A DNA stretch of 42,302 nt from Candidatus Saccharimonas sp. (lineage in GTDB: Bacteria > Patescibacteriota > Saccharimonadia > Saccharimonadales > Saccharimonadaceae): contig DZCW01000005.1 in assembly GCA_022736555.1 (NCBI GenBank), positions 1 to 42,302 of the forward strand, written 5' to 3'. The position numbers were made by a program, and so were the translations under genes. Below the pieces are notes generated by a model that searched no databases, had not been told where the DNA came from, and was given only the letters and a program-made list of their open reading frames with translations. Positions 25,263 to 30,670 of the stretch are shown piece after piece. Positions within the stretch are counted from its first letter, which is position 1; each line of letters begins with the position of its first letter.

Positions 25263-25898
25263 ATGTTTGAAATTGAATATAAAGGCGCAAATTGCATAAT
25301 TATAAGTACTAAAAAGACTAAACTTGTTGTTGACCCAAAAATATCGATTGTTGGGCTTAAAGATATTTCTACTAATGAGGTGATCGAGTTGGCAACCGAA
25401 GATAGATTCGCCATTAATAATCCTGACGCTGCGCTACTAATAAATAGTCCAGGAGAGTATGGTATTTCTGAATTCGATATACGCGGTATTCCAGCTAGGC
25501 GTCATTTAGATAGTGAAAATGAGGCAATGATATCTACTATCTATAGAGTTGAGTTAAACGATACCCGTATTGGTATCCTAGGGAATATATATAACAAGTT
25601 ATCCGACGAACAGCTTGAAAGCTTGGGGGTAATTGATATTTTGGTAATACCGGTCGGCGGTAATGGCTATACCCTAGATGCTGTTAACGCGGCTAGCCTT
25701 GTGCGGTCTATTGATCCGAAGGTAGTTATACCCGTACATTATGCCGACGAAGCACTTAAATATGAAGTGCCACAGGATGAGCTGCAGCTATTTATCAAGG
25801 AGTTAGGCGCTCCAGTGGAGACGGTTTCTAAATATAAAGTCAAGCAGTCTTTGTCGACCCCGGCCACGCTATCAGTCATTGAAATTACGCGTAGTTGA
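25263..25898 (+). CDS. MBL-fold (UlaG-like) protein lacking the HxHxDH motif
   Basis: 211 aa, of the beta-lactamase-like group of small CPR/Gram-positive proteins. Recognisable parts: FEIEYKGANCIIISTKKTKLVVDP at the start, NSPGEYGISEFDIRGI in the middle, and IDILVIPVGGNGYTLDAVNAA plus DPKVVIPVHY towards the end. In related proteins a HxHxDH zinc motif precedes the PGEY stretch. Here that stretch is AINNPDAALLI, with no histidine. Only the late PVHY histidine remains. The protein therefore probably no longer binds the usual metal pair and may act as a structural or nucleic-acid-binding protein. AGGAG lies 8 bases before ATG. Confidence 0.8.
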   Translation: MFEIEYKGANCIIISTKKTKLVVDPKISIVGLKDISTNEVIELATEDRFAINNPDAALLINSPGEYGISEFDIRGIPARRHLDSENEAMISTIYRVELNDTRIGILGNIYNKLSDEQLESLGVIDILVIPVGGNGYTLDAVNAASLVRSIDPKVVIPVHYADEALKYEVPQDELQLFIKELGAPVETVSKYKVKQSLSTPATLSVIEITRS

Positions 25899-25907
25899 CC
25901 TAATTGG

Positions 25908-25955
25908 TTTAAACATAAAAAATCCCTCAATTTTGAGGGATTTTTTATGTTTAAA
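25908..25955. terminator. Bidirectional terminator with 23-bp perfect arms
   Basis: A perfect inverted repeat with arms at 25908-25930 and 25933-25955. The core is AATCCCTCAA / TTGAGGGATT, flanked by A and T runs on either side. It separates the MBL gene from convergent rpmB. Confidence 0.95.
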
Positions 25956-25969
25956 GGCCGTATTGGTAT

Positions 25970-26164
25970 TTAGGCTAAAATGCCTTTTTTCTTTAGGGTG
26001 CGTATAGCTTGGGTACTAAGTACCATAGTTATCTTTTGGCCGTCGATCTCAAAAGTTTTCTTTTGAAGATTTGGTTTAAAGACTCGATTTGTACGACGCA
26101 AAGAAAAGCTCACATTGTGACCAAATTGTTTGCCTTTTCCTGTTAACTCGCAACGTGCTACCAT
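25970..26164 (-). CDS. rpmB: Ribosomal protein L28
   Basis: 64 aa. It begins MVARCELTGKGKQFGHNVSF, the classical L28 start, and continues with SLRRTNRVFKPNLQKK. A 21-residue upstream extension is possible in frame but lies partly in the promoter and is not conserved. L28 is a structural protein of the 50S subunit. The C-terminal TLKKKGILA is typical of short L28 forms. It is transcribed alone between its own promoter and the shared terminator. No zinc-ribbon cysteine pair is seen. Confidence 0.95.
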   Translation of the reverse strand: MVARCELTGKGKQFGHNVSFSLRRTNRVFKPNLQKKTFEIDGQKITMVLSTQAIRTLKKKGILA

Positions 26165-26267: not shown

Positions 26268-26275
26268 AATAGGTG

Positions 26276-26911
26276 ATGAATATCGATATTATCTATATAT
26301 TAACTGTTGTTATGGTTGTTTTGGTTTCTATGACTTTGCACGAAACAATGCATGCTTTTGCTAGTTACTGGTTAGGAGATGATACTGCAAAGATAAATGG
26401 TAGATTAACGTTTAACCCAATTAAGCATATCGATCCGTTCTTAACTATATTACTACCTATAACGTTAGCTATAGTCGGTGCTCCTATATTCGGCGGCGCT
26501 AAGCCAATACCGTTTAACCGTGATAATCTACGTTGGGGTGATTGGGGTGTGGCAATAGTGGCATTATCAGGGCCACTTACTAATTTATTAATTTCTTTTA
26601 TTGCGTTTAGCGTGTTCGTATTGCTGGGGCTGTCAGCCCAAGGTGTTCTAGGACAAATATTTATCACTACAGTGTATGTTAACTTGGGGTTATTTATATT
26701 TAATATGATCCCAGCTCCACCATTAGATGGATCTAGATTACTTTATGCTTTAGCGCCAGATTTTTTTAGAAATATTCTTGAGTTGATAGAAAAATTTGGA
26801 TTGGTGATAGTTTTTGCTATCTTATTATTGTCTGGATCTGCCCTGGAAACTTTCATATCTAAATCTATTAGTTTCTTTATTAGCGCTTTTGGGCATGTCT
26901 TTGGTTTTTGA
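26276..26911 (+). CDS. Site-2 protease-like membrane metalloprotease (M50)
   Basis: 211 aa. Four to five membrane helices. Zinc motif HETMH (HExxH) near residue 25 within MTLHETMHAFASYWLGDDTA. The third ligand is in NMIPAPPLDGSRLL (the NxxPxxxLDG motif), and FNPIKHIDP follows the first pair as in other members. No PDZ domain, so it is the compact S2P form. This family cleaves transmembrane helices, but the substrate is unknown here. I use ATG 26276; an in-frame GTG at 26273 is nearer the -10 and is less likely. Confidence 0.92.
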   Translation: MNIDIIYILTVVMVVLVSMTLHETMHAFASYWLGDDTAKINGRLTFNPIKHIDPFLTILLPITLAIVGAPIFGGAKPIPFNRDNLRWGDWGVAIVALSGPLTNLLISFIAFSVFVLLGLSAQGVLGQIFITTVYVNLGLFIFNMIPAPPLDGSRLLYALAPDFFRNILELIEKFGLVIVFAILLLSGSALETFISKSISFFISAFGHVFGF

Positions 26912-26913
26912 AA

Positions 26914-26922
26914 TGTTATAAT
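26914..26922 (+). promoter_or_regulatory. Extended -10 promoter of the 6S-like RNA
   Basis: TG-T-TATAAT, ending 6 bases before 26929, where the closing helix of the RNA begins. Confidence 0.75.
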
Positions 26923-26928
26923 AGATAT

Positions 26929-27084
26929 GTCCCCATGGTAAGCCTAGGCGTTAATGATTTTCCTAGAATATCATATAGATAGGGAACTCTAATGGTCTAT
27001 CTCTGTGGAGATAGGTTGCGAGTACCCACCTTGCCTTTACGGTAGGGAATATCGTGCGCTGACGGCAAACCTAGGGGACTTTTT
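26929..27084 (+). ncRNA. 6S-like rod-shaped RNA
   Basis: 156 bases between a perfect extended -10 and a T run. Closing stem GTCCCC (26929-26934) with GGGGAC (27074-27079). Then GG/CC, GCC (26942-26944) with GGC (27064-27066), GCG with CGC (27057-27059), and GAT plus TTTCCTA (26959-26965) with TAGGGAA (27043-27049). A large bubble follows: about 16 bases (26966-26981) opposite about 15 (27028-27042). Above it are GGG/CCC, ACTC/GAGT and the apical hairpin CTATCTC-TGTG-GAGATAG (26997-27014). A long rod with a wide central bubble mimicking an open promoter is the mark of 6S RNA, which binds RNA polymerase. I see no 4.5S apical motif, so SRP RNA is unlikely. Confidence 0.65.
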
Positions 27085-27103
27085 GGTGTAAAGATGAGAT
27101 ATT

Positions 27104-27112
27104 TGATACAAT
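27104..27112 (+). promoter_or_regulatory. Extended -10 promoter of RNase P RNA
   Basis: TG-A-TACAAT, about 6 bases before the 5' end of the RNA. Confidence 0.7.
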
Positions 27113-27117
27113 ATTGA

Positions 27118-27466
27118 GTAGGCAGTTTATTAGATGATCGCCCCGTATTTATACGGAGAGGAAAGTCCGGGCAACGTAGAGTGTGACAGTCGCTAACGGC
27201 GACCAGAGGTAACTCTAGGGAAAGTGCCACAGAAACGAAACTACCTTGGGATATTTAATATCTCGGGAAAAGATGAAACGAGTGGGGTAAGAGCCCACAG
27301 CATACCATGGTGACATGGATTGAAGGTAAACCCTGTCAGTTGCAAGGAGGTCTGCATAAAAGGGCTACTCGTCCGCAGGCCGATATCCGCTTGATTTAGT
27401 AGGCAACTGCTAGGCTAGATAGATGATCATCCACGACAGAACCCGGCTTATCGATAGGCTGCCAAC
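27118..27466 (+). ncRNA. rnpB: RNase P RNA (bacterial class A)
   Basis: The universal motif GAGAGGAAAGTCCGG at 27156-27170 and the matching 3' element ACAGAACCCGGCTTA at 27436-27450 form P4 and the core. The P1 ends pair as GGCAG (27121-27125) with CTGCC (27459-27463). GAAACGAAACTACC and the helix regions between fit class A. The RNA cleaves the 5' leaders of tRNA and tmRNA precursors. It is expressed from its own promoter and ends at a strong hairpin. Confidence 0.96.
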
Positions 27467-30257: not shown

Positions 30258-30670
30258 GGGGCTGATATAGCTTTCGACGAAGGGATCTTAACAGGTTATT
30301 TTGCAAGTCGAAGGTACGCGTTAAGTACAAAATATAACTGCAACATTTATTGCAAAAGCAAAAAACTATGTTTCTGAGGTTGCATCTGGCTTAGCCAGTG
30401 TACTTCAGTCGCAAGTTCTAGCAACAGCTCGAATTTAATTTGAGCCATCTTATTATCCAGGCGACATAGAGATAGTAAGGTGTTATAAGTATGTCGCTAA
30501 CTGTTTAAATGGGGAGCAACGTTTAATAGGACATTACATTGCGCGACAGCCAGGGTATTTTTTGTTTAGCTTCTAGCTCTGTGAGTCGTAAAAATTTAAG
30601 TTAAAATATACTTGTAGACGAATAATCGGTTACCTTTCGGACCGGGGTGCGATTCCCCGCAGCTCCACCA
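30258..30670 (+). ncRNA. ssrA: tmRNA (transfer-messenger RNA)
   Basis: 413 bases. The tRNA-like end is GGGGCTG (30258-30264) paired with CAGCTCC, with the G3-U pair that marks an alanine tRNA. T arm GGACCGGGGTGCGATTCCCC, and encoded CCA. Resume context AATATAACT then GCA at 30340 resembles the E. coli AATAGTC-GCA. In that frame the tag ORF runs 32 codons to TAA at 30436-30438, which lies in the loop of a hairpin (GCTCGAA / TTTGAGC). The tag ends LATARI rather than LAA. It releases stalled ribosomes with SmpB and tags proteins for proteolysis. Confidence 0.93.

Follow-up and report, generated by a model that had tools for sequence, protein, structure and literature searches.

The unit at positions 26929-27084 (+) of the window, by which the whole analysed stretch of 42,302 nucleotides is meant, is very probably a 6S RNA gene, whose product most likely serves as a decoy for the housekeeping RNA polymerase and is released from it by the synthesis of a short product RNA (pRNA). 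The window is part of a genome of 0.69 Mb that is 97% complete (G000) and belongs to a Saccharibacterium, an ultra-small symbiont. The unit is flanked by a gene for an M50 peptidase (26273-26911) and by rnpB, and no open reading frame of at least 80 amino acids was found across it. A preliminary description, made from the sequence alone, had placed a divergent 6S RNA here, starting 6 nt after a perfect extended -10 element, ending in a T run and lying beside rnpB. Both ends and the neighbour could be confirmed: 6 nt separate the extended -10 from G26929, the unit closes with TTTTT, and rnpB begins on the same strand 37 nt past its end. The features of the locus are as follows.

26914-26922 (+), extended -10 promoter TGTTATAAT of the 6S RNA gene, read from the sequence
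26929-27084 (+), 6S RNA gene (~150 nt), reaching from the putative start of transcription to the end of the T run
26929-26939 (+), closing stem, 5′ strand, pairing with 27069-27079 in the consensus structure
26942-26951 (+), middle helices of the closing stem, 5′ strand, pairing with 27056-27066 (covariation and consensus structure)
26956-26964 (+), bubble-proximal helix (equivalent of 6S P2 / the downstream duplex), 5′ strand GATTTTCCT, putative pRNA template
26965-26981 (+), central bubble, 5′ strand, 17 nt, putative pRNA start region (consensus; aligned to the bubble of RF00013)
26982-27027 (+), apical, upstream-duplex-like arm GGGAACTC...GAGTACCC with the terminal loop
27028-27044 (+), central bubble, 3′ strand ACCTTGCCTTTACGGTA, 17 nt (RF00013 alignment and consensus structure)
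27029-27047 (+), possible 3′-bubble hairpin CCUUGCC-UUUAC-GGUAGGG, putative release switch
27045-27053 (+), bubble-proximal helix, 3′ strand GGGAATATC, pairing with 26956-26964 in the consensus structure
27056-27079 (+), closing stem, 3′ strand (covariation and consensus structure)
27080-27084 (+), T run TTTTT after GGGGAC (27074-27079), putative termination site or 3′ end
27104-27112 (+), TGATACAAT, judged from the sequence likely to be a separate extended -10, that of rnpB
27122-27466 (+), rnpB, RNase P RNA class A (RF00010, 253.3 bits), neighbour and synteny marker

The T run is present at the 3′ end of many homologues, not of all. In two relatives (L005 at about 1660-1684 and L008 at about 1658-1682) the 3′ end of the 6S RNA reads GGGATGTTATAATTATTAA, without a T run, and thus runs directly into the probable extended -10 of rnpB; in these two, processing at that element may generate the 3′ end.

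In the consensus structure a large central bubble separates the closing stem of the rod from its apical arm. The two bubble strands of 17 nt each come close to the bubble of about 16 and 15 nt, with paired helices on both sides, that had been described before. The minimum free energy of the unit is -59.8 kcal/mol, versus -42.1 +/- 3.8 for 200 dinucleotide shuffles (z -4.69), none of which folds as well. In the order-wide alignment the outermost helix of the closing stem (helix 1) is paired in 96.4% of cells and shows two-sided changes in 8/8 pairs. The bubble-proximal helix is near-invariant within the genus and changes two-sidedly both order-wide and phylum-wide. The apical arm adjoins the bubble with GGG/CCC, the first two pairs of which are invariant, and covarying helices lie beyond. 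A small hairpin within the 5′ bubble strand (26970-26972/26978-26980) was considered as a further conserved element and dropped, since outside the order just 51% of its cells are paired.

At E <= 0.001 a DNA search returned homologues from 28 of the 60 relatives, the weakest of which (L028) was excluded as a likely chance match. Since similarity at the DNA level reaches just the genus and part of the family, covariance models were needed: R1 was made from 26 sequences, R2 was built only from the order, and R3 was widened by sequences added from the class and the phylum. In the window they match 26928-27080 with 153, 141 and 136 bits, respectively. One copy of the gene is found in 16 of the 17 good-quality genomes of the genus. 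A search with a model built from Saccharibacteria homologues had been recommended in the preliminary description; R1 detects one copy in 86/149 genomes of the order, spanning 62/104 genera, and R2 one copy in 111 of the 286 phylum genomes sampled. R3 gives matches in 125 of these 286, a count less clean than that of R2 because part of its training set comes from the same genomes. On these matches a 6S RNA is predicted in roughly 40% of the sampled phylum genomes. As an internal control, no second copy was detected in any genome searched with the lineage models. The exact pattern of promoter and bubble motifs occurs in 34 stretches in named genomes; all taxon-named carriers are Saccharibacteria, Saccharimonadia, TM7 or Patescibacteria, oral TM7 HOT 352 included. 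Even R3 finds no match in over half of the Patescibacteria genomes sampled, near-complete ones among them, for which either loss of the gene or failure of the model may account; within one genus G303 has a match and G321 has none.

The pairing is conserved by compensatory change, on whose presence among relatives the preliminary description had made its reading depend. A MAFFT alignment of 26 sequences that was not fitted to the structure has 41 consensus pairs, 24 of them with two-sided compensatory changes. The alignment of 52 order-wide sequences, made by fitting to the structure, has 95.2% of its cells paired and two-sided change in 39/41 pairs. The order-wide covariation score is 0.596, versus 0.218 after shuffling and at most 0.12 with the partners slid; the slid controls share the same relatedness, yet they collapse. 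A further 26 more distant loci, mostly from outside the order and none used to build R2, were likewise aligned with fitting to the structure, with 89.8% of cells paired and two-sided change in 38/41 pairs. The promoter lay outside the covariance model, so that its conservation is independent: 46/52 homologues have a perfect TATAAT 4-8 nt ahead of the position where the model starts, and among the distant loci 10/26 have TATAAT and 19/26 have TANANT (backgrounds 1.2% and 9.7%). Conservation and compensatory change across relatives place the 6S unit far beyond chance.

At curated thresholds Rfam reports RNase P, tmRNA, tRNAs, rRNA and a rimP leader in the whole window, and no 6S RNA. When matches to 26880-27125 are listed up to E 10, a single one of the 4,227 families appears, namely 6S (RF00013), and no other family offers the better fit that would have spoken against a divergent 6S RNA. 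The alignment covers 26928-27081 and model positions 1-187, i.e. the full length, with 21.2 bits and E 0.015, below the gathering cut-off of 46.4, which is a threshold for annotation and not a biological property. Two motifs within it are aligned to the consensus with high posterior probability: AUAGGGA, which closes the 5′ bubble strand, and ACCCACCU, which opens the 3′ bubble strand. Homologues from the order score 30.7-45.8 bits under RF00013, at the coordinates given by the lineage models; the closest miss is that of L032, from the same family (45.8 bits), followed by L051 (39.5), L045 (38.2) and L053 (36.4).

Above its cut-off RF00013 finds 0/60 close relatives, 5/195 class genomes and 4/286 phylum genomes, against the 111-125 of the same 286 detected by the lineage models, which agrees with the earlier expectation that standard models may miss 6S RNA in this phylum. 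Class and phylum homologues above 46.4 bits include L060 (55.7), L061 (53.2), L064 (47.1), G324 (60.2) and G472 (56.3). In six cases (L060, L061, L064, G472, G440 and G540) R2 or R3 matches at the same place as the above-threshold RF00013 match, L060 scoring 54.3 bits under the lineage model, and among the 22 RF00013 matches in the phylum at E <= 0.001, 16/22 coincide with R2 and 19/22 with R3. Because the matches fall mostly at the same places and some of them exceed the cut-off, the RNA of this lineage is taken to be homologous to the 6S family. With the defining structure, the motifs and the homology at hand, and with the cut-off being an annotation threshold, we class it as a 6S RNA, and the earlier assignment to a divergent 6S RNA stands. 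The ssrS gene of Escherichia coli gives no match under R2 and R3, even with filters off, a result that neither supports nor refutes the 6S identity; the link to classical 6S RNA therefore runs via RF00013 and the intermediate homologues. R3 misses the RF00013 matches of G324, G372 and G401 (60.2, 29.3 and 33.8 bits), so further divergent branches probably exist.

Several other explanations of the locus have to be weighed against a 6S RNA gene. Ms1 RNA is structurally related to 6S RNA and binds the polymerase core (PMC9130861, PMC4191392), and shape alone cannot separate an Ms1-like RNA, with a similar rod and bubble, from 6S. Such an RNA would bind the sigma-free core and store the enzyme rather than imitate a promoter. 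However, the bubble-edge motifs and the full-length alignment fit RF00013, no other Rfam family appears at E 10, and homologues that share this structure score above the 6S threshold, so that we regard an Ms1-like RNA as improbable. That the rod arose by chance, or is an unrelated structured RNA resembling 6S, could be argued from the sub-threshold Rfam score of the window sequence, yet this has very little likelihood in view of the z of -4.69, the two-sided compensatory change in nearly every pair and the agreement in position between models that were built independently.

With rnpB following 37 nt away on the same strand, and staying downstream on that strand in 36/40 loci of the order, the unit could also belong to the rnpB transcript, as a structured leader or a processing unit, instead of being an independent RNA. 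The distance to rnpB varies, however, from ~10 nt to ~1.4 kb, being roughly 0.7-1.4 kb in most relatives, where a tRNA often lies directly 3′ of the 6S RNA. This variation and the intervening tRNA argue for an independent gene; moreover, rnpB was not found in the flanks of loci from other classes, and in the window it has a promoter-like site of its own at 27104-27112. We consider a leader of rnpB to be highly unlikely, and the following account keeps to a 6S RNA gene.

In 6S RNAs the apical arm stands for the upstream duplex of a promoter, the closing stem for its downstream duplex and the bubble for the melted -10 region. Synthesis of the pRNA uses the 5′ bubble strand as template and proceeds into the helix beside it. 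From this known biology we infer how the RNA of this lineage would be transcribed, bind the polymerase, template the pRNA and be released. The rod with its open bubble and flanking duplexes would mimic the DNA of an open sigma70 promoter and most likely bind the housekeeping RNA polymerase (core with an RpoD-type sigma); an RpoD with regions 1.2, 2, 3 and 4 is encoded in G000. As growth slows, the polymerase would be sequestered on the decoy, and upon the return of nucleotides it would copy the 5′ bubble strand into pRNA, the synthesis of which would invade and melt the bubble-proximal helix (26956-26964/27045-27053). The 3′ strand freed in this way may then complete the hairpin at 27029-27047, aiding release of the polymerase. 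This hairpin competes with the bubble-proximal helix for GGG 27045-27047. It is predicted in 43/51 homologues and shares 2-4 nt with the helix in 39 of them; the pairing of its arms amounts to 3.90 of 5, versus 3.30 +/- 0.10 in shuffled sequences, although by column count the covariation is weak. The hairpin is hence a plausible, not a proven, release switch.

Three further features were seen in this genome. The rimP leader reported at 25887-25992 of the window, by a gammaproteobacterial Rfam family at 48.6 bits, just above its cut-off of 47, is probably a spurious family call. The segment forms a strong near-symmetrical hairpin with T runs and a second small hairpin, and lies between two convergent genes, one for ribosomal protein L28 and one for a beta-lactamase-fold protein; it thus looks like a bidirectional terminator. 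A tmRNA of 413 nt at 30258-30670 scores 103.5 bits with Rfam and was missed by ARAGORN. On another contig of G000 (C1; L121:661-1716) a protein of 351 amino acids combines sigma-70 region 4 with a HARE-HTH domain and is devoid of regions 2 or 3; it is possibly a transcription factor of the lineage.

The open-access literature on 6S RNA in Saccharibacteria, TM7, Patescibacteria, Parcubacteria and the candidate phyla radiation yielded no report of such an RNA, although a 6S survey published behind a subscription may have escaped this search; the single co-mentions of 6S RNA with Patescibacteria and with TM7 look incidental as far as their titles tell. Only 2 ncRNAs are given in the published annotation of an oral relative (PMC8830319). 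As a few members of the phylum already pass RF00013, the RNA represents a divergent branch newly added to a known family, not a new kind of RNA. By standard annotation nearly all Patescibacteria would seem to be without 6S RNA, an impression reversed by its predicted presence in about two fifths of the sampled genomes, and the lineage models fill this gap in annotation pipelines.

The genomes of Patescibacteria are tiny, few regulators are known from them, and the episymbionts among these bacteria depend on scavenged nucleotides. The RNA offers a global transcription regulator for study in cultivated oral Saccharibacteria, and its distribution bears on the age of 6S RNA in bacteria. Tentatively, and with more doubt than conviction on our part, 6S RNA may be an ancestral and widely kept regulator of Patescibacteria (candidate phyla radiation) that standard annotation has largely overlooked, its NTP-dependent release sensing host-supplied nucleotides and switching transcription between the free-floating and the host-attached state. 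The distribution has been shown in part; the nucleotide-sensing role is conjectural.

Compared with known systems, the RNA shares with RF00013 the order of closing stem, bubble-proximal helix, large bubble and apical arm, the motifs AUAGGGA and ACCCACCU at the bubble edge, the coverage of the model over its full length, the single copy and a sigma70-type promoter of its own. It differs in its length, ~150 nt against 187 model positions, and in scoring below the curated cut-off throughout the genus and in nearly all of the phylum. Ms1 RNA of Actinobacteria is likewise rod-shaped and polymerase-binding (PMC9130861, PMC4191392), a binding that is presumed for the RNA described here; Ms1, however, binds the core without sigma, whereas our RNA matches the 6S model alone in Rfam. 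In E. coli 6S the release hairpin is formed by the 3′ bubble strand together with the 3′ side of the helix next to it, while 6S-1 of Bacillus subtilis has a smaller 3′-bubble hairpin that is able to form already in the free RNA (PMC8876501). The predicted 3′-bubble hairpin of this lineage resembles that of E. coli in competing with the bubble-proximal helix (PMC8876501), and differs in that most of it could apparently form beforehand inside the bubble, with only ~3 nt shared with the helix; E. coli ssrS itself is unrecognised by the lineage models. In this apparent ability to form in the free RNA the predicted hairpin is like that of B. subtilis 6S-1 (PMC8876501).
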